47,780 nucleotides of DNA, taken from NCBI GenBank assembly GCA_947626395.1, contig CANQRU010000027.1, positions 1-47,780 of the forward strand, written 5' to 3'. The DNA comes from an uncultured Lachnospiraceae bacterium. GTDB lineage: Bacteria > Bacillota > Clostridia > Lachnospirales > Lachnospiraceae. Positions 37,088 to 46,925 of the stretch are shown here, in pieces. Under the pieces are notes generated by a model, which had not been told where the DNA came from, made no database searches, and saw nothing but the letters and a program-made list of their open reading frames with translations. Each line of letters begins with the position of its first letter. Position 1 is the first letter of the stretch. A program made the translations under genes and the position numbers.

Positions 37088-38095
37088 TTACAGGTTATAT
37101 TCTTTAAAAAGTTTTCTTCGAAAGGCTCTGTCGGAAGCCGCCTTTATAATCAGGTCATCCTTATGATTCTCCGACAACACAACGATCAAACGTGCCAGAC
37201 GCTCCTGACCGCGTTCCTCTCCACGTTTTTCTCCGCGCCTTTCCCCAATTCGCTCGCCTTGCTCCCTGCCGCGCTTTTCTCCATCCAGTATCAGATCATC
37301 GATCGCTTTGCACATACCGATCTCCTTCCCTTCCCTCTTCTGCCGGCTCACCAGTTTCCTCAATCTCTTCTGTTCCCCCAGCATCGCAAACGCCGCCGAC
37401 ATCTCCACGCTGTCCATGCGATCTAGTTCTTCTCTGTGAGTACTTACATATCTGTACAGTTTCTCTTTATCTTCATTAAATCTTAACATATAAAAGATAT
37501 GCTGTAAACAGCTTTTGTAGTTTTTCGGATCTTTTATCGCCCTGACTGGGATAATGTTTAAGCGATAATCTGCCACGAGCGGCAGCAGTTCCTTTACTTT
37601 CTCACTCTCCCGATCCACTCCCAGCATCTCATGCAGACTCCTGCTGCCGTCCCATTCCTTTCCCAGATACAGCACCAGGTTCACCACCGGACGCAGCCTG
37701 TCTTCTTTCGTGATGCCTGACATCAGTTCCTCCGAACTTCTCAGTTCGCCCTTCTCCCGATGATTTTTCTCCAGCTCCTGCATCTGCCGGCGGTACTCCA
37801 GAGCATCGTAAAGCATATTCCGGACTGGCATTCCGTAGTCTACCTTTGTCTGTGTCTCGTCGAAAAATGTGACCGAGTAGACATCATTTTCCGCCTTCAT
37901 CCGCACGTCGCCGGTCTTCTCGATGGCTCTCCTGCGGCCGTCCTTCTCCACGATGACCCCGTACCTGAGCGGAAGCGGCGTCAAATCCTCCGGCCGTAAC
38001 ACCTGCTCGCCCCTATGGATCAAGCCGTTGATCAGGTCGGCAAATACAGCCGGTCGCTCCAGCATTGCGTTTACTTCTGTATTGATTACCCCCAT
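37088..38095 (-). CDS. Rpn/PDDEXK family protein (putative transposase-nuclease)
   Basis: A 335-residue protein like the 'Rpn family recombination-promoting nuclease/putative transposase' group abundant in Lachnospiraceae. The N-terminal part has FADLINGLIHRGEQVLRPED and later ENDVYSVTFFDETQTKVDYG (likely nuclease core), then NLVLYLGKEWDGSRSLHEML, a common Rpn motif. The C-terminus is a charged helical tail with repeated G-E-R/K patterns (GERIGERRGEKRGEERGQER). The ATG at 38093-38095 (MGVINTEVN) follows GAGGAG. RpnA-type proteins of E. coli promote RecA-independent recombination; activity here is unproven. Confidence 0.82.
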   Translation of the reverse strand: MGVINTEVNAMLERPAVFADLINGLIHRGEQVLRPEDLTPLPLRYGVIVEKDGRRRAIEKTGDVRMKAENDVYSVTFFDETQTKVDYGMPVRNMLYDALEYRRQMQELEKNHREKGELRSSEELMSGITKEDRLRPVVNLVLYLGKEWDGSRSLHEMLGVDRESEKVKELLPLVADYRLNIIPVRAIKDPKNYKSCLQHIFYMLRFNEDKEKLYRYVSTHREELDRMDSVEMSAAFAMLGEQKRLRKLVSRQKREGKEIGMCKAIDDLILDGEKRGREQGERIGERRGEKRGEERGQERLARLIVVLSENHKDDLIIKAASDRAFRRKLFKEYNL

Positions 38096-38216
38096 ACTAC
38101 TCCTCCTCTGCGCTATAATCGTCTTGCTTTTCAAAAATCGTACATCTGCATGGAATCCGCCGGAGAATAGTCCGGATGAAATCAGATTCTTAGATATATG
38201 AAACATTGACAAAATG

Positions 38217-38675: not shown

Positions 38676-39506
38676 TTATTTTCCCTGCAGATGATACTTC
38701 TCAAGCATCTCCGTCAGAAACTCCGGCTCCCGGCTGAGACGTGAGATCTGATCGCTCTCCCCGGCCGCTGTCATCGCTTCGACCAGTCTGAGAATGCGGG
38801 CAGTCGCTTCACGGCCAATAGCCAGACCTTCCTCGCGGCCCTTCTTCTCTCGTTCTCTCAAAAGCTCTTCAAACAACATATATCTCGCCTCCCATGTCCT
38901 GCTCCGCTTCAGACTCATGACACGCTCATGCAGCTTCCGCACTTTCGCATCGTCCGTCCTGCTTACATATTCGTCGGTGGAATTCTCCAGATAATGCAGC
39001 AGATTTACCAGCTCCGCCGGCACATCCGCCTCATTCGTCCCCTTCGTACTGAGAAATACCCTTGCCGCTCCGTCACCAAGCGCAAAATCTTCCTCCAGAC
39101 ACCGGTTCTCAAACGTATACCGATATCTACCCCGTCCAAACGGATCAAACGTGCAGATAAACACCACATATACCGGCTTCAGCTCCGAAAACTCCTGCCC
39201 TGGCTTCAGCGACATCACGTCCATCTCCGCCTGGTGGAAACGGCTCCTCTGCGGCAACGCCTCGCGTCTGTCGTTCTCCATCTCCATATTGTAACGGACT
39301 TCTGCCTCATCGCTCAAATACACATCGAGCCGCAGGCTACGGAACTCGCTGCTGTACAGAAAAGCATGCTCCACGTCCACCTTCACCCTGCCCACCTCGA
39401 TACCAAGCAGGGTCTCCACCAGCAGTTTGCTGGTCTCCTCGTCCTCCGCCGCAGCGGCGAACAGAAAATAATTTGACAGATTCAGGTCTTGAAACTTTGT
39501 TGTCAC
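38676..39506 (-). CDS. Rpn/PDDEXK family putative transposase-nuclease
   Basis: A 276-residue PD-(D/E)XK nuclease-family protein. The start FQDLNLSNYFLFAAAAEDEE, the active-site segment LRLDVYLSDEAEVRYNMEME (D, then E-x-E) and VVFICTFDPFGRGRYRYTFE are diagnostic for the family. The C-terminal third is helical with a charged REREKKGREEGLAIGREATA stretch that many Rpn-like proteins carry. I place the start at the GTG 39504-39506 (VTTKFQDLN), behind GGAGAGGGGG. An ATG at 39546 would lie about six bases after the -10 element and cannot be in a normal leader. It is related in type, but not closely in sequence, to the protein at 37088-38095. Confidence 0.85.
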   Translation of the reverse strand: MTTKFQDLNLSNYFLFAAAAEDEETSKLLVETLLGIEVGRVKVDVEHAFLYSSEFRSLRLDVYLSDEAEVRYNMEMENDRREALPQRSRFHQAEMDVMSLKPGQEFSELKPVYVVFICTFDPFGRGRYRYTFENRCLEEDFALGDGAARVFLSTKGTNEADVPAELVNLLHYLENSTDEYVSRTDDAKVRKLHERVMSLKRSRTWEARYMLFEELLREREKKGREEGLAIGREATARILRLVEAMTAAGESDQISRLSREPEFLTEMLEKYHLQGK

Positions 39507-39553
39507 ACATATCCCCCTCTCCAGTGCTGCCAGGGGATATTCTGCCATAGGAC

Positions 39554-39974: not shown

Positions 39975-40028
39975 TGTGCCGGCAACGGTATGTCCATCAT
40001 CATAGCCCCATCCCTATCAGCCTCATAA

Positions 40029-40079
40029 AGGAGGTGAAGCCGCAATAATCCCATCAAAAAGGGCCTTCACGGTCCTCCT
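40029..40079 (+). other. Hairpin sequestering an AGGAGG motif
   Basis: AGGAGG (40029-40034) can pair with CCTCCT (40074-40079) and GTGAAG (40034-40039) with CTTCAC (40065-40070). A strong ribosome binding site without a convincing reading frame after it suggests the leader of a deleted gene. Bases 40080-40265 contain no gene I can support. Confidence 0.45.
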
Positions 40080-40265
40080 GAGGTACTTAGCCCTAACCAA
40101 GATACCCCCAAAATCCAGCCTAAAAAACGGCCTTCGTTCGTCAAGCCTAGTTGAGGTATGCCATTTTTATGTTTTAATCGATATCAGATCCCTTCAAACC
40201 ATTGGCTTGATAGTGATAAGGAACTAATTGAATTTATCAACTATCAGCTGATGGTTTCGGGTGCA

Positions 40266-40330
40266 AAGAAGCCCCATTTGACGCACAATCTTAACTGCGT
40301 CAGATGGGACTTCTTATTTTCATCTTTTTT
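40266..40330 (+). terminator. Strong orphan hairpin terminator
   Basis: AAGAAGCCCCATTTGACGCA (40266-40285) pairs almost completely with TGCGTCAGATGGGACTTCTT (40296-40315) around a ten-base loop, followed on the plus strand by ATTTTCATCTTTTTT. It terminates plus-strand transcription, yet no intact plus gene precedes it. This supports loss of upstream element genes. Confidence 0.75.
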
Positions 40331-40524
40331 ATGCTTTGTATAACGCACGACAACGACATCAGCGGTGCGGCGGTAATCAGAAATCCAAAATCTAAGACCA
40401 AACGCCCGTTTCCGGTGGCTGGAATGTGGTTCATCCGTATCGGAGGCGGGCGCTTTATTTTTGTTACGTTTGTATGGGGCATTTGTTCTATTTTTTTGAG
40501 TTGAAACGAACTGATAAATGCTTA

Positions 40525-40854
40525 TTATAACTTAGACGCCCTGTAATCCTCTCCCCATGCTTTCATGGCGTCTAAAATCGGCTTGAGACTCTCTCCCAGC
40601 TCCGACAGCGCATACTCCACTCTCGGCGGGACTTCGGGGTAAACGGTACGGGTGATGATCCCATCCGCTTCCATCGACCGCAGGCTGTCTGTCAGCACCT
40701 TTTGACTGATCCCTTCCAGATTCTTTTGAAGCTCATTGAAACGCCACGGGCGCTGGAGCAGATTTCGTATGATTAAAAGTTTCCACTTGTTCCCGATAAG
40801 CTGAACAGTAGTCGCTACGGGACATTCGGGGATGAGTTCGGCTTTCGTTTTCAT
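40525..40854 (-). CDS. HxlR-family regulator with single N-terminal cysteine
   Basis: A 109-residue winged-helix regulator of the HxlR type. Its opening IPECPVATTVQLIGNKWKLL, the wing region FNELQKNLEGISQKVLTDSL and MEADGIITRTVYPEVPPRVE match the family closely. C11 is the only cysteine and occupies the place of the redox-sensing N-terminal cysteine of YodB and HypR, which respond to quinones, diamide or other thiol-active agents. The gene is divergent from the cysteine-repeat peptide operon, and direct repeats lie in both promoter regions, so it most likely controls that operon and itself. The ATG follows GGAGG. Sensing chemistry is inferred from the family. Confidence 0.9.
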   Translation of the reverse strand: MKTKAELIPECPVATTVQLIGNKWKLLIIRNLLQRPWRFNELQKNLEGISQKVLTDSLRSMEADGIITRTVYPEVPPRVEYALSELGESLKPILDAMKAWGEDYRASKL

Positions 40855-40865
40855 AAAGTACCTCC

Positions 40866-40924
40866 GTTACATCAGAAAAAGAATGTTACATTCATATTTT
40901 ACTGCAACACGCTTCAAAATGCAA
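40866..40924 (-). promoter_or_regulatory. hxlR promoter with GTTACAT repeats
   Basis: Minus-strand TTGCAT (40919-40924), 17-base spacer, TAAAAT (40896-40901). Downstream of the -10, GTTACAT occurs twice on the plus strand (40866-40872 and 40885-40891), 19 bases apart, a plausible autoregulatory operator. Confidence 0.6.
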
Positions 40925-41003
40925 TAGCTTCAGACGAGTTCACAAAAAAGTTAAAAACTGATTTTACCGTCAAACGCCCTAAATGCCCAAAAGTTACAAA
41001 AAG

Positions 41004-41059
41004 GTGCGTATCCCCATAAAAAAGTGCGTACTTGTGCGGAGAAAAAATATCCGTACAAT
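41004..41059 (+). promoter_or_regulatory. Promoter/operator of the cysteine-repeat peptide operon
   Basis: TTGTGC (41032-41037), 16-base spacer, TACAAT (41054-41059). Two direct GTGCGTA repeats (41004-41010, 41024-41030) lie 20 bases apart, two helical turns, immediately upstream of the -35. They are a good candidate site for the divergent HxlR regulator. Confidence 0.65.
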
Positions 41060-41111
41060 GATAGATACAGGAGGCAAAAAGCTCCCTGAATCCATAAAGG
41101 AGGACACGATC

Positions 41112-41369
41112 ATGGCACTCTCTAATCTCGCTGGATGGACTGAGGACAAGGCGGCTTCCGCCTGCGGTGCAGCTTGCGGCGCTTCCGATAAGCCTGCGGA
41201 AACTCCCGCTGCTTGCGGTGCTGCTGACAAGCCGGAAGAAAAGCCGGCTGCGTGTGGCTCTGCCTGTGGCGCTGGTGACAAGCCTGCCGAAGCTCCCGCA
41301 GCTTGCGGTGCTGCCGACAAACCCGCCGAGGCTCCTGCTGCTTGCGGTGCTGCTGACAAGCCGGAGTAA
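41112..41369 (+). CDS. ACGX-repeat cysteine-rich peptide (radical SAM substrate candidate)
   Basis: An 85-residue peptide. The ATG at 41112 is preceded by a perfect AAAGGAGG; the open frame extends upstream only through promoter sequence. A 16-residue N-terminus (MALSNLAGWTEDKAAS) leads into a tandem array in which every cysteine lies in A-C-G-A or A-C-G-S: C18, C22, C35, C48, C52, C65, C78, spaced 4, 13, 13, 4, 13, 13. The linkers are variants of DKPAEAP. A radical SAM/SPASM gene follows 92 bases downstream. This matches what I recall as the 'ACGX' peptide family named computationally as a radical SAM partner; the modification and role are unknown to me. No double-Gly or other leader cleavage site is obvious, and no exporter is linked. 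Confidence 0.9.
   Translation: MALSNLAGWTEDKAASACGAACGASDKPAETPAACGAADKPEEKPAACGSACGAGDKPAEAPAACGAADKPAEAPAACGAADKPE
41160..41366 (+). repeat. 90-bp coding tandem repeat in the peptide gene
   Basis: Two 90-base units (41160-41249 and 41250-41339), each encoding one 17-residue double-ACG block and one 13-residue single-ACG block, are followed by a partial single block. The single blocks are nearly identical at the DNA level, suggesting expansion by unequal recombination. Confidence 0.85.
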
Positions 41370-41382
41370 GTTCACCCCAACC

Positions 41383-41425
41383 GTTCCCGGCGGGTGCAAT
41401 CCTGCCGGGAACCACGATTATTTTT
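41383..41425 (+). terminator. Attenuator-like hairpin between peptide and radical SAM genes
   Basis: GTTCCCGGC / GCCGGGAAC (9 pairs, extended by three inner pairs) at 41383-41412 with a six-base loop, followed after eight bases by TTTTT (41421-41425). It would make the peptide mRNA more abundant than the downstream enzyme mRNA, or stabilise a processed peptide transcript. Confidence 0.7.
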
Positions 41426-41461
41426 CGGCTCTGCCGATTTACGATAAAGCGAGGACTGACG

Positions 41462-42496
41462 ATGAAGCAGTATTTCTCTTTTCAATGGCATATCACGGAC
41501 GAGTGCGATCAGCGGTGCAAGCATTGTTACATTTTCTCCGGGGATAAGTGCCATGAACTTAAAAGCATGACTTGGGCGGAGATGGAGGACACCTTCTATA
41601 ATTGCCTTGACTTCTGCGAGGTGTATGGCCGCCGGCCGTATTTCTATCTCACCGGCGGCGATCCCATCCTGCACCCGGATTTCTGGCGGCTGCTGGCGCT
41701 GTTCAAAGAACACAGCGCCCCGTTTACCATTATGGGCAACCCGTTCCACTTGAACGATCAGGTGTGCCGGGAAATGAAATACTACGGCTGCGAGAAGTAC
41801 CAGCTTTCCCTCGATGGTCTCCATGAGACACACGACTGGTTTCGTAAGCCCGGCTCCTTTGACTGCACGATGGAAAAAATCGGCTGCATCAACCGCTCCG
41901 GGATGCGAAGCGTCATCATGACGACGGTATCCAAAACAAACCGCATGGAGGTGCCGGGGATCATTGACGCAGTGGTAGCGGCGGGCGCAAACGTGTTCGC
42001 CTTTTCCCGCTATGTACCCAGCGGCGGCGACCTGGACGCCTCCATGACGCCGCAGGAGTATCGAGAATTGCTGGCAATATGCGATAAGAAATTCAAAGAA
42101 TATGAGGCGGAGGGCTGCCAGACTTATTTCAACAAAAAAGACCATCTCTGGACACTCTACGAGTATGAAACTGGGACTTTCAAAATCCCCGCGGACACCA
42201 AAGAGGGCATGATCTACGGCGGCTGCAACTGTGGCAACTGCCATATCACGATCCTGCCCACCGGCGACGTGTACGCCTGCCGCCGTGTGGCGGACAGCAA
42301 GGTGGGCAACGTATTCTCTGACCGGCTGGCGGATGTGTGGGTATGTGAAATGGAGCAGTACCGGGAGTATGATAAGTTCGCCAAATGCAGCAAGTGTGAA
42401 TTAAAAGCGTGGTGCCGGGGCTGTCCCGCTGTTGCCAAGGGGACAAACGGCGATTTTTACGCCGCCGACCCGCAATGTTGGAAGGATGTGATTTAA
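41462..42496 (+). CDS. Radical SAM/SPASM enzyme, ACGX-system type
   Basis: A 344-residue radical SAM protein. The S-adenosylmethionine cluster motif is C15-x3-C19-x2-C22 (TDECDQRCKHCYIFSGDKC), followed by YLTGGDPILHPDFW. The C-terminal SPASM domain has C255, C257, C260, C273 and then C309, C312, C318, C321, C339, enough for two auxiliary Fe-S clusters. Such enzymes act on RiPP precursors (sulfur-to-carbon thioether links, C-C links) or, as anSME, on sulfatases. Linkage to the cysteine-repeat peptide argues for peptide maturation, possibly at the ACG cysteines. Only about 14 residues precede the cluster motif, so no RRE-type leader-binding domain is present. The start has GAGG upstream, and its stop TAA overlaps the next ATG by one base. 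Confidence 0.93.
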   Translation: MKQYFSFQWHITDECDQRCKHCYIFSGDKCHELKSMTWAEMEDTFYNCLDFCEVYGRRPYFYLTGGDPILHPDFWRLLALFKEHSAPFTIMGNPFHLNDQVCREMKYYGCEKYQLSLDGLHETHDWFRKPGSFDCTMEKIGCINRSGMRSVIMTTVSKTNRMEVPGIIDAVVAAGANVFAFSRYVPSGGDLDASMTPQEYRELLAICDKKFKEYEAEGCQTYFNKKDHLWTLYEYETGTFKIPADTKEGMIYGGCNCGNCHITILPTGDVYACRRVADSKVGNVFSDRLADVWVCEMEQYREYDKFAKCSKCELKAWCRGCPAVAKGTNGDFYAADPQCWKDVI

Positions 42497-43074
42497 TGAA
42501 ACTGCTGGAGCTTATGAAATATCGCCGCTCTATCCGAAAGTATCAGGACAGGCAAATTTCCCGTGAAGATATGGAAACCATCATCGAGGCGGGGACTTAT
42601 GCGCCAAACGCCGGAGGCGGCCAGCGCAGTATCATCGTGGGCATCCGAAACGCCGGACTCGCGGAAAAAATCGGCAGGCTGAACGTCGCCCGGTTTGACC
42701 GTTCAAGGCTGTCCGGCAGCTATGTTTCCACCGAGCAGCCCAGCATTATCGACGACCCGACCATGAAAAGTGGATTCTATGGCGCTCCCTCCGTCTGCGT
42801 TGTTTTCGCCATGAAGAATTTTCTTTACAGCATCCCGGACGCCTTTTGCTGTGCCGAGAACATGGTGCTGATGGCAACGGAGCTTGGCATTTCCTCCTGC
42901 ATTATCGCAAGGGGTGAGGAAACTTTTGATAACGAGATCGGTGCGGTGCTTCTCCGGGAGTGGAACATCCCCGAAAACTATATTGCACGCTGCTTTGTCC
43001 TTTTGGGCTATTGCGAGGGGGAATATCCGAAAGAAAAACCGCGCAAAGAAAACAGGGGCAGGATCATTGAATAA
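42496..43074 (+). CDS. Nitroreductase-family flavoprotein 1
   Basis: A 192-residue nitroreductase-fold protein. The FMN-phosphate motif is KYRRSIRKYQ near residue 8-17, with APNAGGGQRS where typical members have APSGGNxQP, and MVLMATELGISSCIIARGEE in the dimer-interface/FMN region. FMN is the expected cofactor, with NAD(P)H or an Fe-S protein as reductant. Its start overlaps the radical SAM stop (TAATG), giving tight translational coupling. It belongs to a run of three nitroreductase-type genes that are clearly not close copies of one another. Substrate unknown. Confidence 0.9.
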   Translation: MKLLELMKYRRSIRKYQDRQISREDMETIIEAGTYAPNAGGGQRSIIVGIRNAGLAEKIGRLNVARFDRSRLSGSYVSTEQPSIIDDPTMKSGFYGAPSVCVVFAMKNFLYSIPDAFCCAENMVLMATELGISSCIIARGEETFDNEIGAVLLREWNIPENYIARCFVLLGYCEGEYPKEKPRKENRGRIIE

Positions 43075-43102
43075 GTACAGCAGAAAAATATGAGGTAAGT
43101 CT

Positions 43103-43987
43103 ATGGGAATGGAAGAAAAGACCCGTTTTGAACTGGACAAGTCAAAATGTATCAAGTGCGGGAACTGCATAAATGTCTGTTCCGGCATGGTATTAGAGGC
43201 CGGACAGGATGGATACCCGGTCATGAAGCCCTTTGAGCGTTTTGGATGGCGCGGTTGCTGGCGCTGTGAGCATTGTCTGGCCGTATGCCCCGCAGGAGCA
43301 ATATCCATTTTCGGAAAGAAGCCGGAAAATTCCCTGCCGCCCCCGCCGCTTGAAATGGGCGACTATATGGAGCAGTTGGTGGTGAATCGCCGTTCATGCA
43401 GAAGGTACTTAGATAAAAACGTCTCGCCCGACGTGATCAGCCGGATATTGAAAGCGATGGAATCCGCCCCTACCGGCGGAAATTCCTGCGGCGTGGAATA
43501 TACGGTCATTGACGATAAGGAAAGGACGCGGGAGATTTGGAGCGCGGCATATCCTGTCATGGAGCAGAGCGCCAAAAGGCGCAACTACACTTCCAGCTTC
43601 AGCGATTTTTACTACTCGAAGATGAAGCAGTCGGAAAAAACGGTCAGAAAAGGCGATTTACTGTTTTGCGGAGCGCCGCACCTGTTTATCGCTCATGAAA
43701 GATGCGTGGGAAAATGGGCGGAGGACAGCAAGGTGAACTGCAACCTTGCCACCGCCTATTTTGAACTGCTTGCAAATGCCTTTGGATTGGGCACGGTTAT
43801 TATGAGTTACCCCGCTGATGTTTTGCAGGAGCTTGCCCCAGCTGCCAGGGAAATGCTGAATATCCCGGCAGACCATTACATGAACCTAATCGTCGGTTTC
43901 GGATACCCGGAAATCCGCTATGCGCGAGGCGTTCAAAAGGAGCGCGGCGGCAAAATCCACCGATGGACGCAAAGGAAAAGCCGGTAA
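43103..43987 (+). CDS. Ferredoxin-nitroreductase fusion
   Basis: A 294-residue protein with an N-terminal two-[4Fe-4S] domain: CIKCGNCINVC from residue 16 and CWRCEHCLAVCP from residue 52. A Pro-rich linker (SLPPPPLEMGDY) leads to a nitroreductase domain, with NRRSCRRYLDKNV, APTGGNSCGVE and LANAFGLGTVIMSYP. Such fusions pass electrons from ferredoxin-type carriers to FMN. Cysteine occurs inside both normally conserved FMN motifs (RRSCRRY, GGNSCG), which is uncommon. It lies 28 bases after nitroreductase 1. GAGGT precedes the ATG. Confidence 0.92.
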   Translation: MGMEEKTRFELDKSKCIKCGNCINVCSGMVLEAGQDGYPVMKPFERFGWRGCWRCEHCLAVCPAGAISIFGKKPENSLPPPPLEMGDYMEQLVVNRRSCRRYLDKNVSPDVISRILKAMESAPTGGNSCGVEYTVIDDKERTREIWSAAYPVMEQSAKRRNYTSSFSDFYYSKMKQSEKTVRKGDLLFCGAPHLFIAHERCVGKWAEDSKVNCNLATAYFELLANAFGLGTVIMSYPADVLQELAPAAREMLNIPADHYMNLIVGFGYPEIRYARGVQKERGGKIHRWTQRKSR

Positions 43988-44005
43988 GGATATAGGAGGA
44001 CGAAT

Positions 44006-44611
44006 ATGGACTTTATGGATATTTCAAAGAAGCGGATCACTGTCCGGCAATTTTCCCGGACGCCCGTTGAGGAAGAAAAGATACAGAAAATTCTGGAGGC
44101 CGGTCGCTGGTCGCCCACGGCTGTCAATGGGCAGCCGCAGAGAATCCTGGTGCTGAATACGCCGGAGAGCCTTGCAAAAGTACGGGAGTTCTGCTCTTTT
44201 GGTTACGATCAGAAATATGTCGATCTGGCAAAGGAATGTGACGACAAGGATAACGGCAAAGTCAATTTCTATTATGGCGCGCCTTTTGTCCTGTTTGTTT
44301 CCTACGATAAAACCGCCTGCTGGACGCATCCACAAAGCGGAGAAAGCAGCGGCGCAACGGACGCCACGATTGTTGCCACCCACATGATGCTGGAGGCGGC
44401 GAGTATTGACCTCGGAACCGTATGGATCAGCTATTTTGACAAAGCAAAGGCACAGGAACTGCTGCGCCTGCCGGAAACATGGGAACCGGTTTGTATGCTC
44501 TATATCGGCTATCCGGCAGAGGACTTCAAGCCGAATCCGCGTTTGAGCGGACACAGAAAGCCGCTTTCCGAAACCTGTTTTTACAATACGATTCCCTCAA
44601 CGGAGGAATAA
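44006..44611 (+). CDS. Nitroreductase-family flavoprotein 3
   Basis: A 201-residue nitroreductase with KRITVRQFSRTPVEEEKI as the N-terminal FMN motif, SPTAVNGQPQRILV as the second, and THMMLEAASIDLGTVWISYF near the C-terminal side. It resembles the group often annotated as 'nitroreductase family protein' next to radical SAM or Fe-S genes. A TAGGAGG-type ribosome binding site lies 5-6 bases upstream. It is the third nitroreductase of the operon, 18 bases after the fusion gene. Substrate unknown. Confidence 0.92.
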   Translation: MDFMDISKKRITVRQFSRTPVEEEKIQKILEAGRWSPTAVNGQPQRILVLNTPESLAKVREFCSFGYDQKYVDLAKECDDKDNGKVNFYYGAPFVLFVSYDKTACWTHPQSGESSGATDATIVATHMMLEAASIDLGTVWISYFDKAKAQELLRLPETWEPVCMLYIGYPAEDFKPNPRLSGHRKPLSETCFYNTIPSTEE

Positions 44612-44612
44612 C

Positions 44613-45239
44613 ATGGACGCACAAACTTGTCTCAAAAAATTAGAATATGTCGGCGTACTGGCTTTTGCCACGGTGGACAAGAACGGCGCGCCGCAGATAC
44701 GCAATATCTCTGCCATTCACTATGAGCCGGACAGAATGATTTTCTTCACCGCAAAGGGAAAAGCCTTTTGTGAGGAGCTTCTGACCGATGGCCGTGTGCA
44801 GGTGCTGGGCTACACCAAGTATAAAGAAATGATCCGCCTGTCCGCAAAGGCGGTTTCTGTCCCGGAGGACGAACAGGAGAAGTGGATCGACACGATTTTT
44901 GCGGAACAGCCCTATCTCTCCAATGTCTATCCCCGTGACACCCGAAAGCTGGCGGGGATCGTCTTTGAGATTAGGGACGCGGAAGTCGAATATTTCAACC
45001 TCGGCGTCAACCCGATTTTTCGGGAGAGCTACACCATCGGCGCGGGAAACCTCACCCAAAAGGGATATGTCATTTCCGAAAAATGTATCGGCTGCGGCAA
45101 GTGTTTGAAGAACTGCCCCCAGCGGTGCATTGAGCCGGGAAAGCCCTACCACATTCAGCAGAATCACTGCTTACACTGCGGGAATTGCTTTGCGGTCTGC
45201 CCGGTAAAGGCGGTAGAAAAAATAAGATATAAGAAATAA
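44613..45239 (+). CDS. PNPOx-like flavoprotein with C-terminal two-[4Fe-4S] domain
   Basis: A 208-residue protein. Residues ~1-130 form a split-barrel pyridoxamine-5'-phosphate-oxidase-like FMN domain (VGVLAFATVDKNGAPQIRNI, then MIFFTAKGKAFCEEL). Residues ~155-205 form a ferredoxin module with CIGCGKCLKNCPQRC and CLHCGNCFAVCP. The combination suggests an electron carrier or reductase linked to the nitroreductases upstream. The ribosome binding site GGAGG lies within the end of the previous gene. Its stop lies only three bases from the stop of the convergent XRE-cupin gene, and I see no terminator in that space. Confidence 0.92.
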   Translation: MDAQTCLKKLEYVGVLAFATVDKNGAPQIRNISAIHYEPDRMIFFTAKGKAFCEELLTDGRVQVLGYTKYKEMIRLSAKAVSVPEDEQEKWIDTIFAEQPYLSNVYPRDTRKLAGIVFEIRDAEVEYFNLGVNPIFRESYTIGAGNLTQKGYVISEKCIGCGKCLKNCPQRCIEPGKPYHIQQNHCLHCGNCFAVCPVKAVEKIRYKK

Positions 45240-45242
45240 AAA

Positions 45243-45785
45243 CTAAATATAGTAAATCAAAAGCACCATTTTGACGGTCCGGTCTGTTTTGTTACGATAG
45301 CAATGCGCGGCAGACGCATCAAAAAACAGGGCGTCATCTTTTTCGAGCAGGTATTCTTTTTCATTTACTTCGAGAATGGCCTGCCCTTCGATTACCATAA
45401 TGTATTCAGAACTGTTTGTGGAATGTCCAATTGAGGGATGCACGCAGCCGGGTTCCATCTCGATTTGGTACATTTCAAAATTGCGGTACTGATCCTTCGG
45501 ATAGTAACTGAAAATATGATATTTTTTCTCCACCTGTTCATGAATAGCTGCCTTTTTCACATGGACAGCATGGGTTTCCGGTAATTCCATGAGGCTGGTG
45601 TATGGAAGCTGCAAGGCCCCCGTGATTTTCCATATCGTGTTGATTGTCGGGTTGGAATCCCCTTTTTCTATCTGGGAAAGCACTACTTTGCTGACACCCG
45701 CACTTTCGGCCAACTGGCCCAGGCTTAGTTTGCGTTCTTCCCGGATTCGTTTTAGGTTATAGGCAATGATTTCACTGATTTCCAT
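45243..45785 (-). CDS. XRE-family regulator with cupin domain
   Basis: A 180-residue regulator: N-terminal helix-turn-helix (residues ~9-62, LKRIREERKLSLGQLAESAG, VSKVVLSQIEKGDSNPTINT) and C-terminal cupin_2 barrel (~105-178, SSEYIMVIEGQAILEVNEKE, DALFFDASAAHCYRN). This class often regulates adjacent transport or amino-acid genes in response to a small ligand bound in the cupin. It is divergent from azlC/azlD, with a symmetric operator in the shared promoter region, so it is the likely regulator of that pair. AGGAGGGG precedes the ATG. Confidence 0.93.
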   Translation of the reverse strand: MEISEIIAYNLKRIREERKLSLGQLAESAGVSKVVLSQIEKGDSNPTINTIWKITGALQLPYTSLMELPETHAVHVKKAAIHEQVEKKYHIFSYYPKDQYRNFEMYQIEMEPGCVHPSIGHSTNSSEYIMVIEGQAILEVNEKEYLLEKDDALFFDASAAHCYRNKTDRTVKMVLLIYYI

Positions 45786-45814
45786 AGCCCCTCCTGTTAA
45801 TTTTAATTTTCATC

Positions 45815-45867
45815 TTGTAATTTATATCTTACTGTGCTATACTCTGGCTGTAAGACTTATTTTACAA
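45815..45867. promoter_or_regulatory. azlC promoter with symmetric four-box operator
   Basis: The plus-strand promoter is TTGTAA (45815-45820), 17-base spacer, TATACT (45838-45843). Around it are four boxes in mirror order: TTGTAA (45815-45820), TCTTAC (45827-45832), GTAAGA (45850-45855) and TTACAA (45862-45867), with six bases inside each arm and 17 between the arms. This is a likely binding site for the XRE-cupin regulator. Confidence 0.75.
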
Positions 45868-45900
45868 TATGTTCGTTAAAATATCAAGATGGAGGCTGCT

Positions 45901-46599
45901 ATGATTTTCAGAACACTTAGGAAGGCATTTCCCTATACCATTCCAATTTTCGCGGGCTTTTGGTTTTTAGGGCTTGCTTATGGGATATACATGAATGTTT
46001 CCGGCTTTTCATTTGTCTATCCCATGGTTATGAGCCTGATTATTTTTGGCGGATCGCTGGAATTTGTTGCCGTGGAAATGCTGCTCAGTCCATTTGCCCC
46101 GGTGCAGGTATTTATCATGACTCTGCTGATTCAGGCGCGTCATTTGTTCTATGGCCTTTCCATGCTGGATAAATTCAAGGGTATGGGTTGGAAAAAGTAC
46201 TATCTGATTTTCGGGATGTGTGACGAAACCTTTTCAATCAATTATACTGCGGATATTCCCGAAGATGTGGACAGAGGATGGTTCATGTTCTTTGTGACAG
46301 CGCTCAATCATTTTTACTGGTTCTCCGGTGCAACGATTGGCGGGCTTATTGGTTCACACCTCCACTTCAACACGGAAGGAATCAGCTTTGTTATGACAGC
46401 TATGTTTGTCGTCATTTTCCTGGAGCAATGGCTGAAAGAAAAGCGGCATATCTCCGCATATATCGGCCTTGGGGTCTCTGCTGTTTGCCTGATCGTGTTT
46501 GGGCCCGATTCCTTTATGATACCAACCATGATAGCTATTCTGTCCGTGTTGGCAATTTTACGCAAACCGCTCGAAAAACAGGAGGTGACAGAGAAATGA
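45901..46599 (+). CDS. azlC: AzlC-family branched-chain amino acid exporter subunit
   Basis: A 232-residue membrane protein of the AzlC family, which with AzlD exports branched-chain amino acids and analogues (BrnFE in Corynebacterium, AzlCD in Bacillus). Features include [20 protein letters not shown] near the N-terminus, [29 protein letters not shown] and [14 protein letters not shown] choose the ATG at 45901-45903 because GGAGG lies five bases upstream; an earlier ATG at 45889 overlaps that site. Its stop overlaps the azlD start as ATGA. Confidence 0.94.
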
Positions 46600-46925
46600 C
46601 AGTAACGCAGCAAATGGTAACGATTGGTCTGTGTGTTCTTGGAACCATGCTTACAAGGTTTCTTCCGTTTATTGTATTTTCAGAAAACCGGGAAACACCC
46701 TCGTTTATACAATATATTGGCAAATACCTTCCTTCCGCTGTTTTCGGTATGCTCGTGATTTATTGTTTGAAAGATGTCAGTATTTTTCAGGGAACGCATG
46801 GCTTGCCGGAGTTTTTATCAATCGCTGTAACTGCGATGTTACATTTATGGAAACGTCAAATGCTTTTGTCGATTGCCGGTGGAACCGTATGCTATATGCT
46901 TCTTCTTCATTTTGTATTTATTTGA
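46596..46925 (+). CDS. azlD: AzlD-family branched-chain amino acid exporter subunit
   Basis: A 109-residue small membrane subunit with about three to four helices: [20 protein letters not shown] at the N-terminus, [20 protein letters not shown] in the middle and a C-terminal hydrophobic stretch. The TRFLPF motif is characteristic of AzlD. It is coupled to azlC by a four-base overlap with AGGAGG inside the azlC end. After the stop, 79 bases without a gene lead to the convergent sigma-like gene. Confidence 0.93.

Follow-up and report, generated by a model that had tools for sequence, protein, structure and literature searches.

What is a peptide for in which every cysteine lies within Ala-Cys-Gly, and which is encoded together with a radical SAM enzyme, a candidate thiol sensor and several redox enzymes? 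This question is raised by an operon in an uncultured Lachnospiraceae bacterium (genome of 3.46 Mb). It lies on contig C27 in the window analysed here, that is, the whole stretch of 47,780 nucleotides at C27 1-47780. The operon encodes the repeat precursor peptide AcgA and its radical SAM/SPASM partner AcgM, followed by nitroreductase-type and ferredoxin-containing proteins and faced by a divergent HxlR-family regulator (Table 1). We show here that acgA and acgM are conserved together with HxlR and with one or more oxidoreductases of NAD(P)H or flavin type, as a unit of patchy and partly plasmid-borne spread. The ACGX system as a conserved unit is well supported. For its chemistry and function we infer, with reservation, a stress-induced, intracellular and possibly thioether-cyclised peptide cassette, a reading that is quite possible, if short of probable.

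A conserved unit of regulator, peptide, enzyme and redox partner

Both genes of the pair score above the curated cut-offs of the NCBIfam families for ACGX peptides and enzymes (TIGR04341 and TIGR04340), the peptide in a six-frame search of the genome, and they lie side by side. A sequence-only reading of this DNA had listed the same pair with a divergent HxlR gene, three nitroreductases, one of them fused to a ferredoxin, and a PNPOx-ferredoxin protein; gene calls and domain searches recovered all of these. The several overlapping starts and stops that it described are overstated: acgM and the first nitroreductase gene, NTR1, do overlap by one base (TAATG), but the other gaps measure 92, 28, 18 and 1 bases.

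A scan of genome contigs yielded at least 571 confirmed AcgM relatives, and the 80 loci nearest to the query served to build profiles of HxlR, acgM, nitroreductase, PNPOx-ferredoxin, MDR, sirtuin and macrodomain genes. These profiles were scanned over the 80 loci plus 39 stretches from two even samples and three plasmids. Counts over the 80 loci hold partly by construction, since these loci are the source of the profiles, and the even sample is the fairer one. L139, L142, L147, L160 and L162, which share contigs with other loci, and five loci below cut-off were left out before the union, which comprises 66 loci non-redundant at 90% acgM identity, 44 of them with at least 5.5 kb downstream. All 44 carry a redox gene downstream of acgM: a nitroreductase in 27, a gene for an MDR quinone-oxidoreductase-like enzyme in 15, either of the two in 41, and PNPOx-ferredoxin in 27. 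On the other side, HxlR is divergent in 52 of the 58 non-redundant loci with at least 1.5 kb upstream. The even sample (34 rows above cut-off, five sharing contigs with the 80) gave HxlR in 22/28 and a redox gene in 22/22; five radical SAM relatives below cut-off had a redox partner in 0/5 and HxlR in 0/4 judgeable cases. Neither an ACGX peptide nor HxlR nor a redox partner was found at the radical SAM/SPASM relatives below the TIGR04340 cut-off, L155, L156, L157, L166 and L167.

The sequence-only reading had proposed that regulator and redox genes belong with the peptide/enzyme pair, and in the tabulated neighbourhoods such conserved companions are indeed the rule. Its set of four redox partners is not a fixed one. 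Some redox partner is kept in all 44 loci, but the exact set is swappable: the ferredoxin-nitroreductase fusion is seen in 10/80 relatives' loci, and MDR replaces nitroreductase in 14/44 loci and is the sole one of the three redox types in 9/44. On an acgM tree that was built quickly, with SH-aLRT as its sole support measure and with some long branches (L117 omitted for its split acgM), the redox type (nitroreductase, MDR or PNPOx only) requires 14 changes over 100 labelled rows, below all 200 shuffles (mean 33). The partner type is thus clustered on the tree, yet it has switched repeatedly. NTR1 is a dedicated partner of acgM: in 392 genomes sampled from the order, 11 of the 12 homologues with at least 59% identity adjoin acgM (window included) and the twelfth lies at a contig start, and 7/12 do so at 40-48% identity. 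PNPOx-ferredoxin homologues of at least 57% identity lie near acgM in 15/21 cases (window included), three of the other six being near contig ends; at 40-47% identity the count is 0/15.

The regulator of the window has the HxlR domain and the N-terminal cysteine of HxlR/DUF24 thiol sensors, and this cysteine is kept in 102/102 aligned HxlR sequences of ACGX loci (duplicates included). The B. subtilis regulators YodB, HypR and CatR respond to HOCl, quinones and diamide via an N-terminal cysteine, and AzoR1, HypO and the nitroreductase YodC belong to their regulons (PMC6943732). ACGX loci resemble these regulons in having an HxlR protein with an N-terminal cysteine encoded beside nitroreductase or quinone-reductase-like genes. 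They differ in that YodB has two cysteines (Cys6 and Cys101; PMC8063818) and the window HxlR one, and in that the first output of the ACGX operon is the peptide/radical SAM pair.

The interval from hxlR to acgA holds a conserved operator-like block, which is new here. Among 91 hxlR-acgA regions (five of 96 were outside the length limits), 73 contain AGTTACAAAAAGGTnnnTA-N5-9-AAAAAAGTGCGTACTTG with at most 10/36 mismatches, while each of ten dinucleotide-shuffled sets gave 0 or 1 matching region, and the 7-mer CGTACTT occurs in 79 against a shuffle maximum of 18. The end of the block lies 68-87 bases from acgA in 67/73 cases, and 18/73 blocks hold a perfect GTTAC-N5-7-GTAAC palindrome. Such a block would provide HxlR dimer sites. 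L204 is a macrodomain-sirtuin operon lacking ACGX genes, and it is directly faced by this block and by an HxlR gene of the ACGX type (215 bits); the other five HxlR genes near ACGX-less sirtuin loci score 157-167 bits. In the own genome the half-site occurs once exactly, at acgA, and four times with one mismatch; a reversed-pattern control gave six sites, so the four inexact ones were rejected as background.

The hairpin after acgA is conserved as well, and this too is new here. Ninety-seven acgA-acgM gaps were folded, window included (four loci gave no gap, and six of 103 were too short or too long). The fold z-score is -2 or lower in 86 of them against dinucleotide shuffles (median -3.6) and in 87 against single-base shuffles; the stems differ among the example loci shown. 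Rfam gave 0 matches within 40000-46000 of the window. The hairpin may result in more acgA than acgM message.

Table 1. Features of the ACGX operon, in window positions.
Feature	Position	Strand	Basis or remark
HxlR-family (MarR/DUF24) regulator	40525..40854	-	Divergent; Pfam HxlR 114.7 bits, E 1.7e-33; single N-terminal Cys11
Operator-like block AGTTACAAAAAGGTGCGTA-N7-AAAAAAGTGCGTACTTG, hxlR-acgA interval	40992..41034	+	Conservation among relatives; putative HxlR binding
acgA, ACGX-repeat precursor peptide, 85 aa	41112..41369	+	TIGR04341 66.4 bits, cut-off 28
GC-rich hairpin, acgA-acgM gap	41383..41412	+	Fold z-score; possible attenuator or RNA stabiliser
acgM, radical SAM/SPASM enzyme	41462..42496	+	TIGR04340 583 bits, cut-off 400
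NTR1, nitroreductase-family flavoenzyme	42496..43074	+	Pfam Nitroreductase
Ferredoxin (two 4Fe-4S sites)-nitroreductase fusion	43103..43987	+	Pfam Fer4 and Nitroreductase
NTR3, nitroreductase-family flavoenzyme	44006..44611	+	Pfam Nitroreductase 114.9 bits
PNPOx-like split-barrel fused to a two-cluster 4Fe-4S ferredoxin domain	44613..45239	+	Pfam PNPOx_N and Fer4

At 45243-46925 an XRE-cupin regulator is divergent from an AzlC gene, which is followed by an overlapping small open reading frame (ORF), maybe an AzlC partner; the XRE-cupin/AzlC pair gives no sign of ACGX operon membership. Upstream lies a PD-(D/E)XK transposase-family gene (38676-39548 and 37088-38212 cover this gene and an adjoining ORF without Pfam match), possibly a trace of mobility. 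Some of the 80 loci share further genes downstream of acgM, which code for DUF1848 (2 loci), DUF5131 (5 ORFs) and a further radical SAM protein (3 ORFs), with examples at L108 10032-10979, L062 11841-12719 and L048 2702-3625.

Repeat register of AcgA and its enzyme

AcgA starts at 41112 with MALSNLAGWTEDKAASACGAACGASDKPAET..., its ATG is preceded by AAAGGAGG, and every one of its seven cysteines lies within Ala-Cys-Gly. The acgA reading frame looks real, translated and constrained, because its seven ACG units use five DNA spellings and because its first 80 codons differ from those of L037, a close relative with nearly the same layout, by 16 synonymous and 0 non-synonymous changes.

The register of the repeats was derived from 105 distinct peptides, window included, with 622 cysteines, 618 of which have a residue at +4; 6/112 loci yielded no peptide. 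Glycine directly follows 616/622 cysteines. At +4 stands Asp/Glu in 363/618 and Cys in 226/618, giving CX3[D/E/C] in 589/618, and the second cysteine of the CX3C units again has Asp/Glu at +4 in 219/226. Asp/Glu at other offsets is rare (+3 in 13, +5 in 9), at least one CX2-3[DE] is present in 105/105 peptides, and the long-branch peptides L153 and L165 have other linkers with the register kept. This Cys-X3-Asp/Glu (or Cys) register of ACGX peptides, the motif of PapA-type ranthipeptides, is new here. PapB links Cys to Asp/Glu in CX3D/E motifs and tolerates CX0-6D (PMC9413430). ACGX peptides thus contain the PapA-type acceptor motifs, and the register predicts Cys-Asp/Glu thioethers in AcgA, as a prediction and not as proof.

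AcgM fits into this picture in part. The CxxxCxxC motif and the SPASM cysteines are conserved in 24 aligned sequences, and AcgM is a SPASM enzyme with two auxiliary-cluster cysteine sets. Five PDB sequences match at E 1e-8, among them SkfB (1e-16) and then chain 5wgg (3e-13), which we take to be CteB. In a profile alignment AcgM has Cys 255, 257 and 260 (260 not invariant) at auxiliary cluster I, compared to one cysteine in 5wgg, and these extra cysteines call for caution on the thioether prediction. The ranthipeptides PapA/PapB (freyrasin) and SCIFF/CteB are among the nearest known systems, with repeated Cys-X3-Asp/Glu (PMC9413430) and a SPASM enzyme of the same auxiliary-cluster make-up. In contrast, ACGX peptides have the leader MALSNLxGW and a stress-type operon context, their bonds are predicted ones, and AcgM is set apart by the extra cysteines and by a PapB-model score far below cut-off.

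Two loci depart from the common form. On the Methanosphaera plasmid pNP174 (L117 6440-10024) an archaeal ACGX version occurs with an HxlR-like gene, an MDR enzyme and PNPOx-ferredoxin on the opposite strand; its acgM is split across two annotated ORFs, BREX genes are close by, and the peptide has seven Cys-Gly units, six of them Ala-Cys-Gly, in quite different linkers (CGxE). The operon L152 (G345) looks decayed: a stop codon interrupts the acgM match in frame, the search gave no peptide, and the sirtuin is in two pieces.

Possible roles of the peptide

AcgA seems better suited to a stress response inside the cell than to export as an antibiotic, because the operon has the layout of an HxlR/DUF24 regulon, with peptide and maturase first, and no same-strand ABC-type ATPase-like ORF was found to start within 5 kb after the acgM start in the 112 loci scanned. 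In the reading that we favour tentatively, HxlR would sense electrophile or thiol stress via Cys11 and the operon would be freed. The hairpin would keep AcgA in excess over AcgM, which would install thioether links from Cys to the Asp/Glu at +4 (CX3D/E), in the manner of PapB acting on PapA, and the first cysteine of each CX3C unit would stay free. The uncleaved, unexported product may then serve in the cytosol as a peptidyl thiol in stoichiometric amounts, acting as scavenger, metal ligand or redox carrier, with the nitroreductase, PNPOx-ferredoxin or MDR enzymes reducing the offending electrophile or recycling the peptide. Where present, the class M sirtuin SirTM and a Zn-macrodomain protein (Zn-macro) may gate the peptide by reversible ADP-ribosylation. 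If CX3D thioethers form, they would tie up many of the cysteines, which makes it less likely that AcgA is simply a redox buffer of free thiols.

Several observations weigh against this stress-peptide reading. The divergent HxlR is missing in 6/58 loci and a clear operator-like block in 18/91 regions, and the hairpin of the window, with its T-run several bases off, was not scored as a terminator. AcgM reaches 63.2 bits with the PapB model NF047865, the cut-off being 340, and with its extra cysteines at auxiliary cluster I it has no evident open cluster position to which a substrate thiol could bind. The Methanosphaera peptide has CX2E instead of CX3D/E, CX3C is missing from 7/105 peptides, so that a free thiol is not universal, and the 622 cysteines are not independent, as repeats arise by duplication. 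In favour of the stress-peptide reading, the claim of the sequence-only reading that no exporter is present holds for one type: a same-strand ABC-type ATPase-like ORF starting within 5 kb after the acgM start was found in 0/112 loci (by regular expression only, with many loci cut by contig ends), the nearest lying 5.3 kb from the acgM start in L144, and other exporter types were not searched. A fixed role of SirTM is also doubtful, as discussed below.

An alternative use of the redox genes, which we regard as unlikely, is that nitroreductases, ferredoxin-nitroreductase and PNPOx-ferredoxin would mainly feed NAD(P)H electrons to the AcgM clusters, with the peptide doing something else, such as signalling or metal binding. 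PapB can be activated and re-set through intermolecular electron transfer, either with FMN plus NADPH or with flavodoxin (PMC10470005). A flavin and 4Fe-4S clusters within one protein would suit such a supply, and so would the almost exclusive occurrence of NTR1 in acgM neighbourhoods (11/12). However, in 9/44 loci the only redox type is an MDR enzyme, and single-electron donation is not expected of this family, which lacks both flavin and Fe-S; the four redox genes of the window exceed the need, and PNPOx-ferredoxin and nitroreductase types are also found in ACGX-less SirTM operons.

The dedication of NTR1 to acgM neighbourhoods could also speak for tailoring, in which nitroreductase or MDR enzymes would oxidise or reduce residues cross-linked by AcgM, leading to a multi-step ribosomally synthesised and post-translationally modified peptide (RiPP) or a peptide-derived redox cofactor similar to mycofactocin. 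Nitroreductase-fold enzymes oxidise azolines in other RiPPs, and one of the two enzyme types is present in 41/44 loci. Yet the two types swap (14 tree changes) with the repeat motif unchanged, an in-frame scan of eight window proteins gave no YcaO, PqqD or peptidase domain, and the SagB model scores 16 bits against 78, which makes tailoring distinctly unlikely. The same YcaO and SagB results speak against an azol(in)e RiPP (TOMM) with a SagB-type oxidase. Mycofactocin is a RiPP-derived redox cofactor that has been likened to pyrroloquinoline quinone (PQQ) (PMC8326336). The ACGX system shares with both a SPASM enzyme and a peptide alongside redox enzymes, but it has multi-copy cysteine repeats in place of a Tyr/Val core, and the peptidase and PqqD are those not found in the scanned window proteins.

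Cysteine-rich, Asp/Glu-rich repeats of low complexity, together with a hairpin that may raise the acgA message, would also suit metal binding or Fe-S assembly, in a metallothionein-like or bufferin-like manner with the radical SAM enzyme tuning the ligands. This role is improbable: the regulator is of the HxlR type, and no metal transporter or metalloregulator was found in a scan of nine downstream clusters by one representative each, a scan that did not extend to six small clusters and 80 single ORFs. Least of all do we expect an exported RiPP, bacteriocin or signal, with regulator and redox genes as bystanders: gut anaerobes, a short repeat precursor, a patchy and partly plasmid-borne spread and the possibility of a transporter that is encoded elsewhere or is not of the ABC type (an MFS gene lies upstream of hxlR in the Roseburia locus) would fit it, but the ABC-type ATPase count given above and the conservation of HxlR and redox genes, also with the archaeal copy, make it very improbable.

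SirTM/Zn-macro association and spread of ACGX operons

Many ACGX operons are associated with ADP-ribosylation genes, and this association of SirTM/Zn-macro with ACGX operons is new here. Among the 44 non-redundant loci a macrodomain gene is present in 23, a sirtuin in 24 and both in 23, and the even sample has both in 9/22. The sirtuin profile gave two PDB matches at E 1e-5, 5a3a and 8rsn, the former presumably S. pyogenes SirTM. Best matches of the macrodomain profile are 8rsi, 5kiv and 8rsl, and 5kiv and 8rsl are named Zn-macro structures (PMC4518038 and PMC11490716). The sirtuins show the class M hallmark QG as part of TQGDYGL, and the macrodomains have Cx4HxC and Dx3H. At least 95% of the distinct sequences (53 sirtuins, 49 macrodomains) keep these positions, in agreement with the motifs of SirTM/Zn-macro descriptions (PMC4518038, PMC11490716).

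SirTM-like proteins occur in 124/392 genomes of the order, in 19/26 ACGX genomes compared to 105/366 others (Fisher p 8.5e-6, kinship ignored). The pair has no match among the operon genes of the window; SirTM-like and macrodomain genes of this genome lie on contig C4 36109-37687, unlinked to the ACGX operon, and no recognised HxlR was seen near them within the 14 kb inspected. Of 19 sirtuin loci in genomes where no ACGX gene was detected, 17 have a macrodomain adjacent or close to the sirtuin and 6 have HxlR nearby. One of these 19, G364, begins at a contig end inside an apparent ACGX operon. On the acgM tree the operon sirtuin requires 20 changes over 68 labelled rows (shuffled mean 21; 196/500 shuffles as low). 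SirTM thus comes and goes freely in ACGX operons, which argues against a fixed role. As an obligatory part SirTM was ruled out, since 7/26 ACGX genomes are without it and it does not cluster on the tree.

The extended SirTM/Zn-macro operon of S. aureus and S. pyogenes (GcvH-L, LplA2, OYE/LLM; PMC4518038, PMC11490716) has a counterpart in ACGX relatives, where a class M sirtuin and a Cx4HxC macrodomain stand beside a candidate carrier and flavin oxidoreductases. In the ACGX case the carrier would be AcgA and the modifier AcgM, instead of lipoyl GcvH-L and LplA2; the sirtuin/macrodomain pair is labile and not in the window operon. GcvH-L and LplA2 were absent from the nine downstream cluster representatives scanned, with no model search aimed at them. 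AcgA could be a second SirTM carrier substrate that replaces lipoylated GcvH-L, held inactive by mono-ADP-ribosylation, freed by the Zn-macrodomain under thiol stress and working with the linked flavin/NADPH enzymes. We judge this improbable, because sirtuin presence is not clustered on the acgM tree.

With TIGR04340 at an E-value of at most 1e-60, relatives are found in 29/392 genomes sampled from the order (26 above cut-off) and in 11/398 genomes of the phylum sample (9 above cut-off), the window genome being part of both counts. The 80 nearest loci come nearly all from metagenome-assembled genomes, by title from rabbit ('Lapin'), goat, deer and rumen samples, and isolates are few (Butyrivibrio, Ruminococcus bromii, Agathobaculum). 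At E 1e-50, four plasmid records have an AcgM relative, which correspond to three plasmids, one in two versions, from Roseburia, Subdoligranulum and the archaeon Methanosphaera; phage records gave no relative at this threshold. A RefSeq plasmid record already names the genes acgA and acgM.

The sequence-only reading described the peptide/enzyme pair as named by computation only, which is consistent with our search: TIGR04341 (target_ACGX) and TIGR04340 (rSAM_ACGX) are the names, and in the open-licence literature no paper was found on ACGX with radical SAM, on TIGR04340/TIGR04341 or on acgA/acgM with radical SAM. The same literature gave no paper on SirTM with radical SAM, nor one linking HxlR to combinations of radical SAM, RiPP or nitroreductase, and the papers listed for SbtM/SbtA were on unrelated subjects. 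The model names are computational labels, and they do not include the regulator, the operator-like block, the hairpin, the redox set or the SirTM association.

ACGX pairs are patchy but widespread, up to an archaeal plasmid, and papers on their chemistry or role were not found in the open-licence literature. The CX3D register offers a precise and cheap prediction for mass spectrometry, and the conserved block a basis for an inducer screen. The SirTM/Zn-macro association is a testable candidate for targets of class M sirtuins outside the lipoyl operon. If confirmed, the ACGX system would be a case of a radical SAM peptide that is used inside the cell for stress defence.

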